Positions 40,374 to 49,807 of a stretch of DNA of 49,807 bases are shown piece by piece. The translations under genes and the position numbers were made by a program. Source of the stretch: Thermodesulfobacteriota bacterium. Its GTDB lineage: Bacteria > Desulfobacterota > Desulfobacteria > Desulfobacterales > JAUWMJ01. The stretch is from contig JAXHVO010000086.1 in NCBI GenBank assembly GCA_034189135.1, positions 32,501 through 82,307 of the forward strand, given 5' to 3'. A model generated the notes under the pieces. It was not told the DNA's origin and searched no databases. It saw nothing but the letters and a program-made list of their open reading frames with translations. The first letter of the stretch is position 1, and every line of letters starts with the position of its first letter.

Positions 40374-41021
40374 TTATTTACCTCCGTGAGCTCCGTGATC
40401 TCTGTGGTACATTTGTTTTTGTGCCAGTTTCTTTACGCGCAAAAGACCCGGGCTGTTGTGCATGTACATCAGGGATGAATGATACCCGGCATCTATAAAA
40501 ATGCGCTCCAGTTTATCAAATAGAACGGGACGATCCGGCCAGGTAAAAAGCTTTCTTTCCTGCTCAAGAGATTTCCATTCTTGGCGCAATCGCGGTTTCC
40601 CATCAAACACAGCTTTTATTGCCTGGTCACAAAGAAACATTTCACATACAATCGGTTTCACCCGCCACATGCATCCATGTTTGCCCAGATAGATGCACTT
40701 GAAACCGCTATTGGGTTGCTGAAGTATGGTGCATAAATCCTCTATTTCTTTTGTTTTCGAAGTCATCATATTGACAACCACATCAGCAAAAAAGGTAACA
40801 ATGCCTTCTTTGGAACAACAGGCACTTCGTTTGCTCTGGTAACATTGTTGGCTGCAAATCTGGGTAAAGTGCTTGGCAAGGAAAGTGTTTACTTTATCGC
40901 GAAATAAGAGGTAATCGGTCAGAGCGTTGCTGAGCTTCATCCTTTCAGGCGTTGGAATACCGGCAAGGTACTCCTTTACCATCAGTATGGCATCAAGTTG
41001 CTCTTTTTGATATTCGTCCAT
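40374..41021 (-). CDS. Cys-rich protein of unknown function (YkgJ-like cluster possible)
   Basis: A 215-residue soluble protein with many cysteines: ICSQQCYQSKRSACCSKEG in the first half and CIYLGKHGCMWRVKPIVCEMFLC in the second. The CxxxC...CC and C...C...C...C pattern resembles YkgJ-type zinc- or iron-sulfur-binding domains, but the match is loose. The N-terminal 50 residues are helical. It reads away from the megasynthase gene, separated by 145 bp; no regulatory link is visible. Confidence 0.65.
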   Translation of the reverse strand: MDEYQKEQLDAILMVKEYLAGIPTPERMKLSNALTDYLLFRDKVNTFLAKHFTQICSQQCYQSKRSACCSKEGIVTFFADVVVNMMTSKTKEIEDLCTILQQPNSGFKCIYLGKHGCMWRVKPIVCEMFLCDQAIKAVFDGKPRLRQEWKSLEQERKLFTWPDRPVLFDKLERIFIDAGYHSSLMYMHNSPGLLRVKKLAQKQMYHRDHGAHGGK

Positions 41022-41166: not shown

Positions 41167-44100
41167 ATGAATAACAATTCATCTATTGCCGTGGTAGGGA
41201 TGGCAGGGTTATTCCCGGATGCCCCCGACCTTGATACATTCTGGCAGAATATCATAAATAAAGCACAAGCATCCCGTGAGGTGCCCAAAAACAGGTGGAT
41301 CGTCGATCCTGAACTGATGGTTCATCCTGACCCAATGCCCGATAAAGCGCTTTCCAGTCGATGCTGCCTGATTAATGATTTTCAATTTGATCCGCAAGGA
41401 ATTGACATTGATCATGATATATTGAAAGAGCTCGATCCTTTGTACCACCTAGTTCTCCATACAGGCAGGGCTGCCATTGCAGATTGCCAGGTCCCACTTC
41501 ATTCAAAAAATCGCACGGGTGTGGTTCTGGCGGCAATTGCACTGCCCACAGATGCGTCTTCGGCCATCACCAGAGAGATATTGGGGTCATCCCTGGAAGA
41601 AAAGCTGTTTGGCAGTCGCACGATTCATCCTGTTACCAGGAATCAGTCCCTTTCCTCCAGGGTGACAAGCCTTCCGGGAGCTGTACTTGCCAAAGGCTTT
41701 GGCCTTAGCGGCGGAAGTTATACCCTGGATGCTGCCTGCGCCTCATCTATTTATGCGGTTAAACTGGCCTGTGATGAGCTTTTGTCTCACCGTGCCGATG
41801 CAATGCTGGCCGGCGGCGTATCAAGGCCGGAATGCCTTTATACTCAGGTCGGTTTCAGTCAGCTTCAGGCTTTATCTCCTTCAGGTCGCTGTGCTCCTTT
41901 TGACGAAAGTGCGGACGGCCTTGTGGTGGGAGAAGGTGCCGGTATTCTTGTGTTAAAGAGACTTGAAGATGCCATTCACGAGAAAGACAGAATCTACGGT
42001 CTCATAAAAGGCATCGGTCTTTCCAATGACATGAGGGGAAATCTTCTTGCTCCTGAAAGCAAAGGCCAGGTTCGTGCCATGAAAAACGCTTATCGATCTG
42101 CCGGCTGGTTACCCCACGATGTTGATCTTATCGAATGCCACGGCGCAGGCACACCGGTGGGAGATACCACTGAGTTGCACAGCCTTAGAAGCCTCTGGGG
42201 CGAATCCGGCTGGTCCTCCAAACAATGTCCAATCGGGTCAATCAAGTCGATGATCGGTCACCTTTTGACAGGTGCCGGTGCAGCAGGCATGATTAAGACC
42301 CTGTTGGCCTTTAAACACAGGATCCTTCCACCATCACTAAATTTTTCAAAAGCTTCGGAGAAAAGTCCTCTGCGAAACAGCCCCTTTCGCGTGCAGACAT
42401 CTGCCGAAAAATGGAAAAAAAGAAATGCCGATCTTCCCCGCCGCGCCGCGGTCAGTGCATTCGGCTTTGGCGGAATAAACGGTCATCTCCTTTTCGAACA
42501 GTGGGTCTCAGAAACCGGTAAATCCCTGGTAAAAACAAGGCATCCAGCAGCCAGTATTCCCCATAAACAGGAATCTCCACTTCGTCCCGACCCGCCTGCA
42601 GTACCCACCACCAAACAACATGTCCCCATCGCCATTGTCGGCATGGAAACTATCTTCGGATCTTTAGATTCATTGAGAGATTTTCAGAAAGTTGTCTTAG
42701 GCGGCAAATCAAATATCATTAAAAAGCCAAAAGACAGGTGGGTGGGTTGTGACCATATCGCTAACAGGCACTTGGGCCGACAGGCTTTTTACGGTGGCTT
42801 TATCGATGAAATTTCAATCGACATGGGAGATTTCCGCATACCGCCAATCGAAGTTTATGACATACTCCCCCAGCATTTGCTAATGCTTAAGGTTGCAGCA
42901 GGCGCCATGGCCGATGCAAATCTTCCATTAAGAAAAGAACGCCCTCAAATGGGAGTGATCATCGGTCTTGAATTCGATTTTGAAGCAACCAATTTTCACC
43001 ATCGTTGGAATTTATCCAATTCGGTTGAAAACTGGGAAAAAAAATATCAGCTTGAGTTGAATGAAAGTCAGGCACAAGCCTGGCTTCAATCGCTAAAGAA
43101 AGAATCCGGTCACCCCCTTTCTCATACCCGAACACTTGGCGCTTTGGGTGGAATTGTTGCCAGCCGGATTGCCAGGGAATTTCGTTTTGGCGGGCCCAGT
43201 TTTATTGTTTCCTGCGGAGAATCGTCCGGGTTGCGGGCGCTTGAAACAGGCGTCCGATTTCTTCAGCAGGGCGAAACAAACAGCATGCTGGTGGGTGCGA
43301 TTGATCTTTTCGGTGACGTACGCAGCGTCATTACCTCTAACATGATTATTCCATTTTCTAAACAGGATCACATTCGCCCCTTTGACATATCTGCAGACGG
43401 TACCCTGCCGGGGGAAGGAGCCGCCGCACTTATACTTAAGAGGCTGGATACTGCTATTGAAGACGGTGACAGAATTTATTCCGTAATCAAAGGAATCGGA
43501 AGCGCAAGCGGGGGAGGTATTAAAGAAAGTGTGCCGTCAAAAAGCTCATATATGCTTTCATTAAGGCGTTGTTTTCAGGATGCCGATATACCTCCATCTT
43601 CTGTCAGTTATGTTGAAACCCACGGAAGCGGAGACAGACGGCAAGACGCTGTAGAATCAGAGGCACTTTGCGACTATTTTTCCAAAAATCCGAACCGTAA
43701 TGACAGACCCTGTGCACTGGGTTCCGTGAAACCAAATGTCGGGCATACCGGTGCTGTTGCAGGACTTGCGTCACTGGTTAAAACAAGTCTCAGCCTGTAC
43801 CAGGAAATAATTCCCCCGTTAAATAATTTTATTGAGCCGGTTGAAACCCTCCGGCAAAACACAGCTTTCCATATCCCTGTTTTCCCACAGTTCTGGCTTA
43901 GAGATAGACAAGACGGCCCCCGCAGGGCATGTGTCGCATCCATGACCCCCGACGGAACAACCATGCATGTCGTTCTTGAAGGTTTTGAGTATTTATCGGC
44001 CGAAGATCTATCCGGGCAGACACAAAAAAAGGTTTTACAGGAAAGAAAAAGGCCATTGGGAGTCAGTCCTTACGGAATGTTTGTCGTTGAAGGAGACAGC

Positions 44101-47100
44101 AAGAATTCTTTAATACAAGGCCTGGAATCTCTTTTAATTCATAGCAAAAAAAAGTCTTTGTCCACACGGGAAAATATTGAGCACCTGGCGCGCAGCTGGT
44201 ATCGGGAAAACAAATCACATCCACACCAAAAATATGCGGTTTCAATTACAGCAGAGAATATTTCCCGGCTTGAAAATTTAGTTGCCCAGGCAAAAAGTGC
44301 CGTGTTATCCGATACACCTCAAAGAGCAAACGGGTCGGGTGGAATTCATTATTCTATAAACCGTCTGGGTCTGACAGGTGAAACCGCACTCGTCTTTCCC
44401 GGCTCCGGGAACCATTATATCTCAATGGGCAGAGGTATTGGTGTACAGTGGCCCGATATCTTACGGGGGATGGATGCAAAGACCCTTCAGTTAAAAACCC
44501 AGCTTCTCCCAGGTTGCTTTCTTCCGCAGAGAATTTCGTGGTCGCCGGGATGGGAGAAAGACGCCATGGAAAAAATTATATCCGATCCGCTTCATATGAT
44601 TTTTGGCCAGGTTGCACATGGCGGTGTGGTTTCCAGCCTCATGAATTACTTTGAGTTGAAACCTTCCGCAGTGATTGGATACAGTCTGGGTGAGTCGGCA
44701 GGGCTTTTTGCAATGGGTGCATGGCCTGATCGCGGTCAAATGCTGAAGCGCATGCAACGCACGGACCTTTTTTCCAATTCACTCGCCGGGCCGTGTCACG
44801 CTGCTCGAAAAGCCTGGGGGCTTTCCGCTAATGAAGAGGTTAACTGGTGTGTTGCCGTGGTTAATCGCTCTGCAGATACTGTTCGCAAAGTGATTAAAAA
44901 ATGGCCGACCACACGGCTTCTGATCATCAATACTCCGGATGAGTGTGTGATTGGCGGCAGGGAGATCCATGTAAAAGCCGCCATAAATATGCTGGGTTGT
45001 ACGGCACTTTTTTTAGACGGTGTGATTACCGTCCACTGCGATGCGGCAATACCTGTGGCAGAGGCATACAAGGCCCTGCATATTTTTCCCACCAGTCAGC
45101 CGGGCAATTTAAAATTTTACAGCTGTGCCCTAGGAAAATCATACGATCTCACCAGTAAGAGTACGGCCGATTCAATTTTACAGCAGGCCATTGCCGGCTT
45201 CGATTTTCCTGCTGTCATAAAGCAGGCATATAGAGACGGCATCCGCATCTTTCTGGAAATGGGACCTGGCTCGTCCTGCACCAGAATGATCAATAAAATC
45301 CTTAAAAGCAAACCACATCTAGCTGCCAGCGCATGTGTGAATGGTGAAGACGACTATATTACGATATTAAATGTGCTAAGCGCCCTTTCAGCGGAACGTG
45401 CTTCGGTCAACCTGGATAAACTATACGGAAATGATTTTTATCCTCCGACAGTTGCCTTAAAGGATAAGGACAAAATTACCGGTCGGGTAAGCATTATTGT
45501 CGGAGGAAAATCTCCTTCCCTTGCCGTACCTCCTTTAAAAAGTAGAAAACAAAAACCAGGCTTCGCTTTCGGCTACGCCCGGCAAGCCAGCAACCAACAG
45601 AGCCAGTTGGAGCAAAGAGAAAATCTTGCTAAAAGCGGAGCATACAGCAAAGCCAGTTGGAGCGAAGCGGAAATCCCGCTGAAAGCGGGGCAGAAGGAAA
45701 CGAGAACCCGACATCAAGACCTTATCAAAACCATGTCTGAAAATATTGAAGCCACCTCAAAAGCGCATCAAAAATTTTTGGACTTTTCAAACAACTTAAC
45801 AAAAAATTTTGCAAAAACATTTTCCCTTCAAACAAAGCTGATTGAAACTGTTATCAAAGACGAAGGATACGCCCCTGAAGGCGAAGATTCACCACATCGC
45901 ATTTTCCCGGAACCGGCCTTTTCCCGTGAGATGTGTATGGAATTTGCCACCGGCTCTGTTGCCAAAGTACTCGGCCCTGAATTCGCCGTCGTCGATACCT
46001 ACAAGGCAAGAGTGCGCCTTCCGGATGAGCCGTTGATGCTGGTTGACAGGATCATTTCAGTAGAAGGTGAAAAAGGCTCCATGAGTCATGGCCGAGTGGT
46101 GACCGAGCATGACGTACTTCCCGATGCCTGGTATCTGGACGGTGGTCACGCTCCGGTATGTATCTCGGTGGAAGCCGGGCAGGCAGATCTTTTTTTATGC
46201 GCCTATCTGGGTATAGACCTTGTGGTTAAGGGCAAAAGAACATACCGGCTTCTTGATGCAAATGTCATCTTCCACGCAGGATTGCCACAGCCCGGTGATA
46301 TCATTCGCTATGAAATTGAAATAGAAAAATTTGTGCGGCAAGGGGATACCTATCTCTTCTTTTTCAACTTTGAAGGACGAATCAATCACAATTTACTAAT
46401 CAGCATGTCAAACGGATGTGCCGGTTTTTTTACCGAAGATGAGGTGATACGTTCAGGGGGAATTATCCTTACCGATGAAGATACCCGGCCATTAAAGGGC
46501 AAAATAATGGATGACTGGAACAATCTGGTTGGGTTATATCCTGAAAGCTATGACGATGATGCGGTGGAAGCACTTAGAAAGGGTGACCTGTCAAAGTGCT
46601 TCGGCCCGCTGTTTAACGGAATGAATCTTTCCGAGGCTCTGAGACTCCCGGGTGGCCGCATGAAACTGATCGACCGTATTCTTTCTTTCGATCCTGCAGG
46701 TGGTCGATACGGACTCGGTTCTATTAAGGGGCAGGCGGATATTCATCCGGACGACTGGTTTTTGACCTGCCATTTTAAAGACGACATGGTCATGCCCGGT
46801 ACCCTTATGTATGAATGCTGCGCCCATACCCTCAGAATATTTATCCAGCGGATCGGCTGGGTAACGGACAAACCGGACGTATGCTACGAGCCGGTCACAG
46901 GCGTTGAAAGTGTTCTTAAATGCCGCGGGCCTGTGACTCCGAAAACCAAGCAGGTTATTTACCAAGTGGATATCAAAGAGCTGGGGTACGCGCCCGAACC
47001 TTACGTGATTGCCGATGCAGACATGTATGCAGACGGCCACCATATTGTAAGATTTAAAGACATGTCCATGAAAATGACAGGGATAACACGGGAAGAAATC

Positions 47101-48357
47101 GAATCATTCTGGGAAAACAAATCAAACTTAATATCTAAAAAGCGACCGGCAACTCTAAACTCGCAGCCCGTAAGCCGCGATCCGCAACCCGCAACCCGCA
47201 GCCCGCAACCCGCCATATTTGATCGCAACCACATTTTAGAATTTACCACTGGAAAGCCGTCAAAAGCATTCGGCGATTTGTATCAGCCGTTTGACAGTGA
47301 AAGATTCATCGCCAGACTTCCCGCACCCCCATATTCCTTTATCGACCGAATTGTATCCATCGAGCCTGAACAGTGGCTCCTGGAACCCGACGGATGGGTC
47401 GAAGCGGAATACGACGTAAGCCCTGATGCCTGGTACTTTAAAGCCAACAGAGCCCCTTTTATGCCCTATTGTATCATAAACGAAATAGCGCTCCAAACGT
47501 GCGGATGGCTGGCCGCATACATGGGATCAGCCCTTAAAAGTCAAAAAGACCTTAAATTCAGAAACCTTGGAGGAAATACGACCTTATATCAAAACATTCC
47601 GCCCGATAAAAATACCCTGACTTCTCGTGCCAGATTGACACAGGTTTCTAAGGCCGGCGATATGGTTATTGAAGAGTTTGATATTCAGGTTTTTCAATCC
47701 GGCTTAAAAATCTACCAGGGTGACACCAGCTTCGGCTTCTTCACCAGAGAAGCGCTGGCTGTACAAAAGGGCATTCATGGTAAGGACCAACAGACTTATG
47801 AACCGGGAGCCGGAAAAATAGAAAAGGCCGAATCATTTGCTATTAAACACGAACCGCCATTGACTCCTGACGATCAAGACGATGATAAAATTGATCGAGC
47901 ACATTTTTTCTCAATGCCTGCCAAGGCTATTCTCATGCTCGACCAAATAGACATGTACGTTCCTGACGGCGGGCCATATGGCCTCGGCTTTATCCGCGGA
48001 ATAAAAAAAGTGAACCCGGATGAATGGTTTTTCCAGGCACACTTTTTCCAGGACCCCGTATGCCCCGGTTCCCTCGGAATAGAATCTTTTCTGCAACTGA
48101 TCAGGTTCATTGCCATAAATCGATTCAAACACCTTGAAAACAGCCATCGTTTGGAGCTGTTAACACAAACTCCTCACAACTGGATTTATCGTGGCCAGAT
48201 TCTTCCGCAAAATAAAAAAATTGAGGTTGAAGCTGTGGTCACTCAAATGTCCGACAAACCGAATCCTGAAATTATTGCAAATGGATACTTGAAAGTTGAT
48301 GGACTTTATATATATAAGATGGACAACTTCGGTTTTAGACTGGTTCCGGTAAAGTAG
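41167..48357 (+). CDS. KS-CLF-AT-DH4 lipid megasynthase (PfaC/PfaB-like secondary lipid synthase)
   Basis: A 2396-residue iterative fatty-acid/polyketide-type synthase. Residues 5-455 are an active ketosynthase with Cys191 (DAACASS), His325 and His365. Residues 485-935 are a second KS fold in which the active-site Cys is lost (SCGESS, Gly684 at the Cys position), so a chain-length factor. Residues about 1070-1430 are an acyltransferase (FPGSG, Ser1173 in GYSLGE, His1290). After a helical linker come four FabA-like hotdog domains: about 1585-1765, 1820-1975 (His1869), 2022-2190 and 2235-2390 (His2292 in AHFFQDPVCPGSLGIE). The domain content is PfaC of omega-3 PUFA synthases plus a PfaB-like AT. 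It has no ACP, ketoreductase or enoyl reductase, so partner proteins are needed. The start has no strong ribosome site. Product is inferred to be a polyunsaturated or repeatedly dehydrated chain. Confidence 0.93.
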   Translation: MNNNSSIAVVGMAGLFPDAPDLDTFWQNIINKAQASREVPKNRWIVDPELMVHPDPMPDKALSSRCCLINDFQFDPQGIDIDHDILKELDPLYHLVLHTGRAAIADCQVPLHSKNRTGVVLAAIALPTDASSAITREILGSSLEEKLFGSRTIHPVTRNQSLSSRVTSLPGAVLAKGFGLSGGSYTLDAACASSIYAVKLACDELLSHRADAMLAGGVSRPECLYTQVGFSQLQALSPSGRCAPFDESADGLVVGEGAGILVLKRLEDAIHEKDRIYGLIKGIGLSNDMRGNLLAPESKGQVRAMKNAYRSAGWLPHDVDLIECHGAGTPVGDTTELHSLRSLWGESGWSSKQCPIGSIKSMIGHLLTGAGAAGMIKTLLAFKHRILPPSLNFSKASEKSPLRNSPFRVQTSAEKWKKRNADLPRRAAVSAFGFGGINGHLLFEQWVSETGKSLVKTRHPAASIPHKQESPLRPDPPAVPTTKQHVPIAIVGMETIFGSLDSLRDFQKVVLGGKSNIIKKPKDRWVGCDHIANRHLGRQAFYGGFIDEISIDMGDFRIPPIEVYDILPQHLLMLKVAAGAMADANLPLRKERPQMGVIIGLEFDFEATNFHHRWNLSNSVENWEKKYQLELNESQAQAWLQSLKKESGHPLSHTRTLGALGGIVASRIAREFRFGGPSFIVSCGESSGLRALETGVRFLQQGETNSMLVGAIDLFGDVRSVITSNMIIPFSKQDHIRPFDISADGTLPGEGAAALILKRLDTAIEDGDRIYSVIKGIGSASGGGIKESVPSKSSYMLSLRRCFQDADIPPSSVSYVETHGSGDRRQDAVESEALCDYFSKNPNRNDRPCALGSVKPNVGHTGAVAGLASLVKTSLSLYQEIIPPLNNFIEPVETLRQNTAFHIPVFPQFWLRDRQDGPRRACVASMTPDGTTMHVVLEGFEYLSAEDLSGQTQKKVLQERKRPLGVSPYGMFVVEGDSKNSLIQGLESLLIHSKKKSLSTRENIEHLARSWYRENKSHPHQKYAVSITAENISRLENLVAQAKSAVLSDTPQRANGSGGIHYSINRLGLTGETALVFPGSGNHYISMGRGIGVQWPDILRGMDAKTLQLKTQLLPGCFLPQRISWSPGWEKDAMEKIISDPLHMIFGQVAHGGVVSSLMNYFELKPSAVIGYSLGESAGLFAMGAWPDRGQMLKRMQRTDLFSNSLAGPCHAARKAWGLSANEEVNWCVAVVNRSADTVRKVIKKWPTTRLLIINTPDECVIGGREIHVKAAINMLGCTALFLDGVITVHCDAAIPVAEAYKALHIFPTSQPGNLKFYSCALGKSYDLTSKSTADSILQQAIAGFDFPAVIKQAYRDGIRIFLEMGPGSSCTRMINKILKSKPHLAASACVNGEDDYITILNVLSALSAERASVNLDKLYGNDFYPPTVALKDKDKITGRVSIIVGGKSPSLAVPPLKSRKQKPGFAFGYARQASNQQSQLEQRENLAKSGAYSKASWSEAEIPLKAGQKETRTRHQDLIKTMSENIEATSKAHQKFLDFSNNLTKNFAKTFSLQTKLIETVIKDEGYAPEGEDSPHRIFPEPAFSREMCMEFATGSVAKVLGPEFAVVDTYKARVRLPDEPLMLVDRIISVEGEKGSMSHGRVVTEHDVLPDAWYLDGGHAPVCISVEAGQADLFLCAYLGIDLVVKGKRTYRLLDANVIFHAGLPQPGDIIRYEIEIEKFVRQGDTYLFFFNFEGRINHNLLISMSNGCAGFFTEDEVIRSGGIILTDEDTRPLKGKIMDDWNNLVGLYPESYDDDAVEALRKGDLSKCFGPLFNGMNLSEALRLPGGRMKLIDRILSFDPAGGRYGLGSIKGQADIHPDDWFLTCHFKDDMVMPGTLMYECCAHTLRIFIQRIGWVTDKPDVCYEPVTGVESVLKCRGPVTPKTKQVIYQVDIKELGYAPEPYVIADADMYADGHHIVRFKDMSMKMTGITREEIESFWENKSNLISKKRPATLNSQPVSRDPQPATRSPQPAIFDRNHILEFTTGKPSKAFGDLYQPFDSERFIARLPAPPYSFIDRIVSIEPEQWLLEPDGWVEAEYDVSPDAWYFKANRAPFMPYCIINEIALQTCGWLAAYMGSALKSQKDLKFRNLGGNTTLYQNIPPDKNTLTSRARLTQVSKAGDMVIEEFDIQVFQSGLKIYQGDTSFGFFTREALAVQKGIHGKDQQTYEPGAGKIEKAESFAIKHEPPLTPDDQDDDKIDRAHFFSMPAKAILMLDQIDMYVPDGGPYGLGFIRGIKKVNPDEWFFQAHFFQDPVCPGSLGIESFLQLIRFIAINRFKHLENSHRLELLTQTPHNWIYRGQILPQNKKIEVEAVVTQMSDKPNPEIIANGYLKVDGLYIYKMDNFGFRLVPVK
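45601..45693 (+). repeat. Two ~45-bp repeats inside the AT-DH linker of the megasynthase
   Basis: Units beginning AGCCAGTTGGAGC at 45601 and 45651 are about 50 bp apart and share most bases (…AAATC…GCT.AAAGCGG.GCA). Just upstream is GCTTCGCTTTCGGCTACGCC, a palindromic-repeat-like stretch. They are translated in frame as a low-complexity linker (SQLEQRENLAKSG, SWSEAEIPLKAG) that does not resemble the flanking domains. Confidence 0.7.
47162..47214 (+). repeat. In-gene heptad array (GCAACCC type) in the linker between hotdog domains 2 and 3
   Basis: Tandem CGCAACC/CGCAGCC heptads, translated as QPVSRDPQPATRSPQPA (residues about 1999-2016). The reverse complement GGGTTGC is the unit of the intergenic arrays at 48431 and 49621. 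Heptads of this composition lack stop codons in all frames in this orientation, so expansion keeps the protein open, though a length change not divisible by 21 shifts the local frame or peptide register. Confidence 0.75.
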
Positions 48358-48430
48358 GTGTTTAGAGATATCATATAAACAATTTGTTGTTGCTCTCAGC
48401 TGGCAGTTTTTAAGTTAAAAGATGATGTCA

Positions 48431-48505
48431 CGAGTTGCGAGTTGCGAGTTGCTAATCGAAAACAATCTTTTTTTATAACCCGCAACACGGAATCCGCAAC
48501 AGGAA
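48431..48505. repeat. Heptad array in the megasynthase-oleA gap
   Basis: Three GAGTTGC units (48431-48453) face GCAAC-containing units in opposite orientation (48477-48505: CCGCAAC repeated), giving a possible hairpin. Same family as the in-gene array at 47162 and the array after oleA. Confidence 0.65.
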
Positions 48506-48575
48506 CCATTGATCCAGCAATTTTTATTCACTGATATTAAAGAGCCGAATTCAGATATTCCGGCTTTAAGGTGTT

Positions 48576-49616
48576 ATGCTTTACTCCAAAGTTTATATTG
48601 ATGCTTTCGGCTATGAACTGGCCCCCAACGTGGTCACATCGGATGATCTTGAAAAGCGGCTTGAACCACTTTATGAGGCGCTTCATTTTCAAAAAGGTCA
48701 ACTAGAGGCGTTAACCGGAATCCGAGAGCGCCGGTTCTGGAATCCTGGCTACAAGATGTATGAAGGTGCAGTAAAAGCGGGGAAAAAAGCCATTGAGAAT
48801 TCAGGTATTGCCCCTGAATCTATCGGAATGCTTATCTATGGCGGGGTATGCCGAGACAACCTGGAGCCTGCCACTGCCTGTTCAGTAGCTCACGGGCTGG
48901 GCCTGGGGTCGGATACCCAGGTTTATGATGTTTCCAATGCCTGTCTGGGTATTTTAAACGGAATGGTCCAGATTGCCAATGCCATTGAACTCGGACATAT
49001 GAAAGCAGGGGTGGTTGTATCCTGTGAATCTGCCCGCCAAATCGTGGACATCACCATTGATCGCCTCCTTGCCGCAAAAGATATGGAAATGTTTAAAAAA
49101 ACCGTGGCCACACTTACAGGAGGGTCAGGTGCGGTGGCGGTGGTGCTTACCGATAAACTGCTTTCCGATAAAGGACACCGTCTACTTGGTGGGGTGATAA
49201 GGAGTGCTTCAGAGCACTATAAGCTATGTCGCTGGGGGCCGAATACCGGTATTCCTTCAAACAGCCCCCAGATTATGGAGACGGATTCTGTGGGTGTTTT
49301 GCAAAACGGCGTTAAGCTGGGCATAGAAACGTTTAACGCTTTTAGAAATGAGCTTTCATGGCCGAATAACAAACCGGATAAAATCATCTGCCATCAGGTA
49401 GGCGCCACCCATCAAAATACCATCCTTGAGTCTATTGGAATTGATAAAAAAAAGGATTTCACCACCTTTAAGTATCTGGGAAACATAGGAACCGTATCTC
49501 TTCCGATTACCGCTGCCATTGCCTCAGAGCGTGAATTTTTAGCTAAAAATGATCTGGTCGGTTTTTTAGGAATCGGCAGTGGGTTGAACTGCCTGATGCT
49601 TGGAATTAAGTGGTAA
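48576..49616 (+). CDS. oleA: OleA-type thiolase-fold condensing enzyme
   Basis: OleA joins two fatty acyl-thioesters head to head into a beta-keto acid, the first step to long-chain olefins or ketones. The 346-residue protein has a FabH-like fold with Cys123 (SNACLGILNG), His273 (CHQVGATHQN) and Asn303 (LGNIGT), and the C-terminal hallmark LGIGSGLNC. Glu97 in LEPATA lies 26 residues before the active Cys, the same spacing as the essential Glu117/Cys143 pair of Xanthomonas OleA, which separates it from plain FabH. It follows the megasynthase on the same strand by 218 bp. In Shewanella, OleA with a PUFA synthase yields a polyunsaturated C31 hydrocarbon; a similar pairing is inferred here. Confidence 0.85.
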   Translation: MLYSKVYIDAFGYELAPNVVTSDDLEKRLEPLYEALHFQKGQLEALTGIRERRFWNPGYKMYEGAVKAGKKAIENSGIAPESIGMLIYGGVCRDNLEPATACSVAHGLGLGSDTQVYDVSNACLGILNGMVQIANAIELGHMKAGVVVSCESARQIVDITIDRLLAAKDMEMFKKTVATLTGGSGAVAVVLTDKLLSDKGHRLLGGVIRSASEHYKLCRWGPNTGIPSNSPQIMETDSVGVLQNGVKLGIETFNAFRNELSWPNNKPDKIICHQVGATHQNTILESIGIDKKKDFTTFKYLGNIGTVSLPITAAIASEREFLAKNDLVGFLGIGSGLNCLMLGIKW

Positions 49617-49620
49617 GCTA

Positions 49621-49666
49621 CGCGTTGCGGGTTGCGAGGTACGGGTTGCGGGGTACGTGGTGCGGG
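49621..49666. repeat. Heptad array downstream of oleA
   Basis: GGTTGCG/GGTACG-type units (CGCGTTGCGGGTTGCG and on) begin four bases after the oleA stop. They are related to the in-gene and intergenic arrays at 47162 and 48431. Confidence 0.65.
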
Positions 49667-49807
49667 AGAAAGGTGTTTTGAATATCGAATATCGTAGCGC
49701 CAGGCGAAGTCTGGAGCGTTGGAATAGGTGGCGAAAGAGCCACATTTGAAATTCGCTGAAGGAGTCTAATGGGTTCAAAACCCATCCGGTAAGGGCTGTC
49801 ACCCAAC
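49667..49807. other. Window end: non-coding, repeat-like sequence
   Basis: No gene is supported. There is a perfect small palindrome ATGGGTT-CAA-AACCCAT (49769-49785) and GCGCCAGGCGAAG-type sequence that recalls the repeat in the megasynthase linker. Minus-strand frames here look like repeat-derived noise. Confidence 0.35.

Follow-up and report, generated by a model that had tools for sequence, protein, structure and literature searches.

Introduction

What does an anaerobic bacterium make when a polyunsaturated fatty acid (PUFA) synthase gene lies directly before oleA? The question arises from a 49,807-nucleotide stretch of DNA, hereafter the window, from a Thermodesulfobacteriota bacterium of the order Desulfobacterales (assembly GCA_034189135.1). 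The window forms the last part of contig JAXHVO010000086.1 (82,307 bases; here C86), in a genome of 4.6 Mb with 140 contigs and a completeness of 95.5%. Two genes at 41167-49616 are at issue. We consider it highly probable that they constitute half of a Pfa-Ole pathway with genes scattered over the genome. On its gene content, this anaerobe is a probable producer of a long polyunsaturated hydrocarbon, through a route described in other bacteria.

Results

PfaBC is a fused PUFA synthase subunit

The two genes and the domains of the first are listed below. Abbreviations are ketosynthase (KS), chain-length factor (CLF), acyltransferase (AT), dehydratase (DH) and open reading frame (ORF).

41167..48357, + strand: pfaBC, fused PUFA synthase subunit (KS-CLF-AT-four hotdogs), 2396 amino acids; ORF, Pfam, NCBIfam, alignment
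41179..42516, + strand: KS1, active ketosynthase (Cys191), residues 5-450; NCBIfam, alignment, PDB 6riw
42622..43986, + strand: KS-like CLF, Glu685 in the catalytic Cys column; Pfam, alignment; approximate boundaries
44590..45399, + strand: PfaB-type AT, GYSLG motif; TIGR02816 below cut-off, PDB 9ry8, alignment
45979..46536, + strand: hotdog 1, pseudo-dehydratase, no His in the catalytic column; Pfam, alignment; approximate boundaries
46633..47076, + strand: hotdog 2, catalytic FabA-like dehydratase/isomerase; TIGR01749/NF003509 (residues 1823-1970), alignment
47299..47826, + strand: hotdog 3, pseudo-dehydratase; Pfam, alignment; approximate boundaries
47917..48321, + strand: hotdog 4, catalytic FabA-like dehydratase; PF07977 (residues 2251-2385), alignment
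48576..49616, + strand: oleA, head-to-head acyl condensing thiolase, 346 amino acids; NF006720, PDB matches, active-site alignment

A first-pass annotation, made from the letters alone, had described a single protein with an active KS, an inactive KS, an AT and four FabA-like hotdogs, followed by OleA. Its coordinates and frames for both ORFs proved exact, and Pfam, NCBIfam and alignment confirm the series of domains. In 41167-48357, Pfam identifies two sets of ketoacyl-synthase N and C domains and four FabA-like stretches. Active sites were compared across 12 full-length homologs, the window protein included. KS1 keeps Cys191, His325 and His365, while Cys is absent from the catalytic column of the second KS. 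Hotdogs 2 and 4 retain the catalytic His and a Glu. In hotdogs 1 and 3 this column lacks His; in hotdog 1, a His occupies the next aligned position in 6 of the 12. PfaBC is built as a PUFA synthase, with KS and CLF followed by two pseudo-DH/DH pairs. We rejected the idea that the hotdogs are an expanded DH4 array because the alignment resolves these pairs, as described for the C-terminal part of PfaC (PMC4882568).

Among solved structures, PDB 6riw, molecule 'ORF10', comes closest to the first 958 residues (residues 6-880, 403.6 bits, E 5.3e-118); we take it to be PfaC of Moritella marina. The AT part has one strong solved relative, PDB 9ry8 ('PfaBs', E 1.1e-24). Its motif, GYSLG at residue 1171, occurs in 12/12 homologs and has the GYSxG form of PfaB. 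In PfaB acyltransferases, Tyr replaces the His of the GHSxG motif found in the PfaA malonyl transferase (2026 study, PMC12895367). The NCBIfam model pfaB_fam (TIGR02816) matches residues 1142-1411 at 102.3 bits, under its cut-off of 144.3, and a Pfam search of the AT region alone gave no match.

The adjacent gene encodes OleA

The product of the second gene matches the OleA model NF006720 over its full length (480 bits against a cut-off of 285; E 4.4e-144). The next-best model reaches 105.1 bits and the fabH model TIGR00747 77.1 bits. Across the genome, the OleA family scores 479.5 bits for the window gene and 88.6 bits for the runner-up. Full-length matches in the PDB include 3fk5 and 3row; we assume 3row and its kin to be Xanthomonas OleA. 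E97 and C123 are at the positions first reported. Together with P98, H273 and N303 they are invariant in 41/41 aligned OleA sequences, these being the window protein and 40 of the 42 loci recruited by OleA. Glu followed by Pro is a mark of OleA (PMC7064751). The first-pass annotation would have fallen if this gene encoded FabH or another β-ketoacyl synthase III; profile scores, solved relatives and active-site residues rule that out. Given the strength of the 6riw match and of the end-to-end OleA family match, neither the megasynthase nor the OleA assignment is due to chance.

Partner genes are located elsewhere in the genome

The first-pass annotation had pointed to an acyl carrier protein (ACP)-ketoreductase (KR) protein, a PfaD, a phosphopantetheinyl transferase (PPTase) and oleBCD as the partners to look for. 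All were located in the same genome:

C120:27759-34319: pfaA, KS-AT-2xACP-KR-DH, 2187 amino acids; Pfam, TIGR02813
Contig C17: pfaD, enoyl reductase; TIGR02814, 642.3 bits against a cut-off of 449.25
Contig C42 (L076:4871-5464): PPTase; single PF01648 match
C61:334-3981: oleB, oleC and oleD, the first ORFs of at least 100 amino acids on C61

Lack of an ACP-KR partner, which would have undone the proposal, is ruled out by PfaA. This protein scores 1562.8 bits against TIGR02813 (cut-off 1010.1). Its Pfam domains (KS, AT, two ACP, KR and PS-DH) give the PfaA series of KS, malonyl acyltransferase (MAT), tandem ACP and KR. Two ACPs are seen, although the assembly may have collapsed more. The AT motif is GHSFG. 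HxxxGxxxxP is the motif of polyketide synthase (PKS)-type DH domains, and the DH of PfaA carries it. Relatives of PfaA on plasmids are distant (31-39% identity among the 15 of 188 records listed). The pfaD product is the sole above-cut-off match to TIGR02814 in the genome, and the PF01648 search of the genome showed no second PPTase.

With oleB, oleC and oleD present, the genome holds all genes of the OleABCD pathway. Their products are 82, 85 and 88% identical, respectively, to those encoded beside oleA in a congener. In that congener (L021), oleA and oleB are ~300 bases apart; in the window, the contig ends after oleA with the following feature:

49677..49807, + strand: multi-copy group II intron, probable 5' end; near-identical copies in the genome

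Seven other sites in the genome, at least five of them contig edges, carry copies of the terminal ~130 bases of the window with 97-99% identity, and one additional site shows a 35-base partial match. With Rfam, neither L009 (window end) nor L075 (C61 start), each searched whole, had a match at E 0.01. When only the first 330 bases of L075 were searched, a domain V-like stretch matched RF00029 (29.8 bits, E 3.6e-4), below the gathering score of 40. L075:1-116 would be the other side of the probable intron, after which oleB follows; the intron is absent from L021. Read most simply, the assembly broke at a multi-copy group II intron that lies between oleA and oleB. In relatives, oleBCD can be seen next to oleA.

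Gene order and co-occurrence in relatives

Neighbourhoods were compared at the 42 loci recruited by OleA. The nearest of these belong to metagenome-assembled genomes (MAGs) assigned to Desulfobacteraceae, Desulfobacterales or Deltaproteobacteria; two further genomes, both congeners, represent the organism's own family. pfaBC lies upstream of oleA in 22/42 loci, and another 8 have less than 1 kb of upstream sequence. OleB is encoded downstream in 28/42. A search of 21 genomes found PfaA in 20; the sole miss (G002) is 75% complete. In relatives, pfaD adjoins pfaA or is one gene away in 6/8 pfaA loci (L108, L109, L112-L115); it was not seen beside pfaA in L107, where the locus is cut, or in L111, a short contig. 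Desulfonema magnum has pfaA, pfaBC, pfaD and oleABCD, with the pfa genes far apart in a complete genome.

We then considered 96 genomes spread evenly over the Desulfobacterales, the present genome included, with a requested completeness of at least 85%. OleA was called above the family cut-off. PfaA-like proteins were called at E 1e-230 with at most four candidates scored per genome, and PfaBC-like proteins at E 1e-200 with at most three, so misses may be false. By these measures OleA occurs in 76/96, PfaA-like proteins in 76/96 and PfaBC-like proteins in 70/96. All three markers are found in 66 genomes and none in 15. OleA and PfaA-like proteins coincide in 71 genomes (OleA only, 5; PfaA-like only, 5; neither, 15), though the PfaA-like matches of G034, G064, G079 and G107, at just 41-42% identity, may be other synthases. 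OleA and PfaBC-like proteins coincide in 68, with 8 genomes having OleA without PfaBC-like and 2 the reverse.

In 44 of these 68 genomes, pfaBC ends at most 1.8 kb upstream of oleA on the same strand. Of the remainder, two have the genes 1.8-1.95 kb apart, 18 have them on different contigs and 4 have them on one contig but far apart or otherwise arranged. The pfaBC-oleA gene order suggests that the synthase passes its chain directly to OleA. We met no order-wide count of genomes with this junction in the open-licence literature. For the 68 surveyed genomes with both pfaA and pfaBC, the two lie within 12 kb in 20, far apart on one contig in 4 and on different contigs in 44, some merely through broken assemblies. 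Single-cluster and dispersed pfa states both occur.

Outside the order, OleA proteins with 60-66% identity are encoded in planctomycete MAGs (L051, L053 and L054; Phycisphaerae, Planctomycetota). In the Phycisphaerae MAG locus L051, pfaA-pfaBC-oleABCD form one run. These occurrences may reflect either gene transfer or mis-binning.

Proposed pathway and product

Pfa synthases couple repeated elongation with FabA-like dehydration and isomerisation to make polyunsaturated chains without oxygen. The genes described here would presumably work together as follows. PfaA would hold the growing chain on its two ACPs and carry out condensation, malonyl loading, ketoreduction and PKS-type dehydration, with PfaD providing the enoyl reductase step. 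PfaBC would add a second KS with its CLF, the PfaB-type AT and the two pseudo-DH/DH pairs, of which the FabA-like domains would dehydrate and isomerise to give cis double bonds without oxygen. OleA would then join two polyunsaturated acyl chains head to head, probably taking them straight from the ACPs of PfaA. Finally, OleD would reduce the keto acid, OleC would close the β-lactone and OleB would decarboxylate it to an internal alkene. Because oleBCD is present, a hydrocarbon is likelier than a ketone. Most likely, the product would be a C31:9-type polyene hydrocarbon made without oxygen. This assignment draws on Shewanella and Geobacter, and the acyl chain would be ~C16 with four double bonds. 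Partner genes and the identity of OleA support the first-pass interpretation that this anaerobe would form an oxygen-independent polyunsaturated long-chain product.

Comparison with known systems

The first-pass annotation had set a PfaB-like AT within a PfaC-like protein apart from the classical layout. The AT is indeed there, but the claim to novelty is weaker, since pfaBC fusions have been described (PMC3098273). Shulse and Allen (2011; PMC3098273) catalogued 20 Pfa-like types, several with a pfaBC fusion. In their account the order is KS-CLF-AT-DH2 in types C and D, fusions also occur in H and I, and K is like I; the sulfate reducer Desulfatibacillum alkenivorans represents type C, and Geobacter is among the sources of type I. 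By the layouts described there, the present system shares the KS-CLF-AT-DH order, a KS-MAT-ACPn-KR PfaA and a separate PfaD. It differs in having pfaA, pfaD and pfaBC on three contigs and in that pfaBC precedes oleA. The same survey reports Pfa-like synthases co-occurring with ole genes in 44/80 genomes, often linked.

Geobacter bemidjiensis, an obligate anaerobe, likewise combines pfa with oleABCD. Its pfaD, A, B, C, oleA, B, C, D and pfaE stand in tandem, and C31:9 is its reported product (PMC4882568), whereas the genes here are dispersed. The layout is not new: pfaBC fusions were reported in 2011, four hotdogs are ordinary for PfaC, and pfa with ole in an anaerobe is already in print. We take the pfa and ole operons of Shewanella to be unlinked. 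Shewanella PfaA-E and OleABCD are the same enzymes, and there too the chain is proposed to pass from the Pfa ACP to OleA (PMC6463001), but PfaB and PfaC are separate proteins in Shewanella and fused here. E. coli carrying pfaA-E and oleA gave a 31:8 ketone (PMC6463001). In the same study, a catalytic mutant of OleA lowered eicosapentaenoic acid (EPA) as much as wild type did, which its authors attributed to direct contact with the ACP.

The enzymes are known; their breadth is less expected, with about two thirds of sampled genomes (66/96) carrying all three markers. Desulfobacterales are major complete-oxidising sulfate reducers of marine sediment. We can offer only tentatively, and with more doubt than confidence, the extension that members of the order share Pfa-Ole hydrocarbon synthesis as a core lipid trait and are a large bacterial source of C31-class polyenes in anoxic sediments. 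Were this true, polyenes reduced in sediment would resemble the odd-chain n-C31 alkane that is commonly attributed to plant wax. If the polyenes are made, sediment hydrocarbon biomarkers need a second look. Desulfovibrio belongs to a different order. Long-chain hydrocarbons have been reported in sulfate reducers of that genus (PMC5270751), and such reports would, if the polyenes are made, gain a testable genetic counterpart here. In a lake metagenome, oleC genes of anoxic water were assigned to Desulfobacteraceae among others (PMC10176705).

Alternative explanations

The Pfa enzymes could make a free membrane PUFA, as in producers of EPA or docosahexaenoic acid, with OleABCD drawing on type II fatty acids and no substrate shared. 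Shewanella makes both EPA and hydrocarbon, and OleA homologs use chains from either type II fatty acid synthase or Pfa (PMC6463001). Stand-alone KS genes are also present in our genome, and among the 96 sampled there are the five with OleA but no PfaA-like protein and the five with the reverse. We nevertheless regard separate products as unlikely: pfaBC within 1.8 kb upstream of oleA (44/68) and co-occurrence of PfaA-like proteins with OleA (71/96) argue for a shared one. A different chain is also improbable, namely one that is long but saturated, hydroxylated or keto-bearing, like that of heterocyst glycolipids or phenolic lipids, so that the Ole product would be a saturated or mono-unsaturated olefin. 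Chains of this kind are known from several Pfa-like types (PMC3098273), and the PPTase motif resembles that of types M-T. Set against this are the two pseudo-DH/DH pairs with their FabA-like catalytic His in 12/12 PfaBC homologs, the lack of these DH domains in heterocyst type F as described in PMC3098273, and a PfaA far above the omega-3 PfaA cut-off. The probable group II intron raises a further scenario, in which it parts oleA from oleB (~300 bases apart in the congener), oleBCD is no longer expressed with oleA and the pathway ends at the ketone in this strain. But group II introns can splice, and oleBCD is intact and 82-88% identical to the genes of the congener; we think this outcome very unlikely.

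Several findings weigh against a polyunsaturated hydrocarbon from dispersed Pfa and Ole genes, the reading we prefer. The genes do not form a single cluster (pfaBC-oleA on C86, pfaA on C120, pfaD on C17), and we infer that C86 connects to C61 through the intron. OleC (608.9 of 850) and OleD (395.1 of 580) score under the narrow NCBIfam olefin equivalog cut-offs; OleC clears the broader model NF006754 (741.2 against 478). Read by eye, the PPTase stretch WSVTH fits the P1b' pattern and not the PUFA-type P1b motif (F/S)NxSH. Shulse and Allen tie P1b' to types M-T and (F/S)NxSH to types A, B, C, D, F, I and L, and describe the latter motif as not universal among secondary lipid synthases (PMC3098273). 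Twelve of the 42 OleA loci have more than 1 kb of upstream sequence but no pfaBC there (L027, L028, L030-L032, L049 and six planctomycete loci). At the thresholds used, 5 of 76 OleA genomes lack a PfaA-like match and 8 a PfaBC-like match. The Fisher P values for co-occurrence, 1e-9 and 2e-11, ignore shared descent.

Other features near the pfa and ole genes

A gene of ~190 amino acids lies beside pfaA in 5/9 pfaA loci (L010:14486-15067, on C120 of the present genome, and L111-L114). Its product has no confident family; the conserved N-terminal half looks like a MerR-type DNA-binding region, and 2 of the 5 members match Pfam MerR_1 at E 0.02-0.03, below the cut-off. We regard it as a candidate pfa regulator. 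Divergent from pfaBC, a Cys-rich protein of 215 amino acids is encoded at 40374-41021 (- strand) of the window. It has no Pfam match and, by eye, is presumably YkgJ-like. Homologs adjoin pfaA in L112 (43%) and L115 (60%), and the protein may belong to the Pfa-Ole system.

In several lineages, short tandem arrays occur within the coding sequence of pfaBC or pfaA and also at ole junctions. One lies within PfaBC:

47158..47213, + strand: imperfect 7-bp tandem array, in frame in the linker between hotdogs 2 and 3

Others are at 48427-48454 and 49624-49651 of the window, at L075:270-318 and in L023, L024, L025, L109 and L110. The unit varies between and within genomes. Because 7 is not a multiple of 3, a change in copy number would shift the frame. 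At the OleA loci of relatives, the pfa/ole span has 16 arrays in 265 kb and the sequence outside it has 3 in 200 kb (P 0.019), but the arrays come from five loci, and L025 by itself contributes nine of the 16. Looser 7-bp arrays also occur elsewhere in the present genome (9 in 395 kb). Desulfonema magnum has six arrays in pfaBC and four in pfaA. They are also common elsewhere in that genome (28 in a 400 kb sample), and we do not claim phase variation through them.

A gene for a phage-integrase-family (XerC/D-like) recombinase recurs near pfaD (L019, 8192-10279; L108; L112-L115), as does one for an M24 peptidase (L019, L112, L113 and L115). This suggests an old, fixed pfaD-pfaA site, from which pfaA moved in the organism's own genus.

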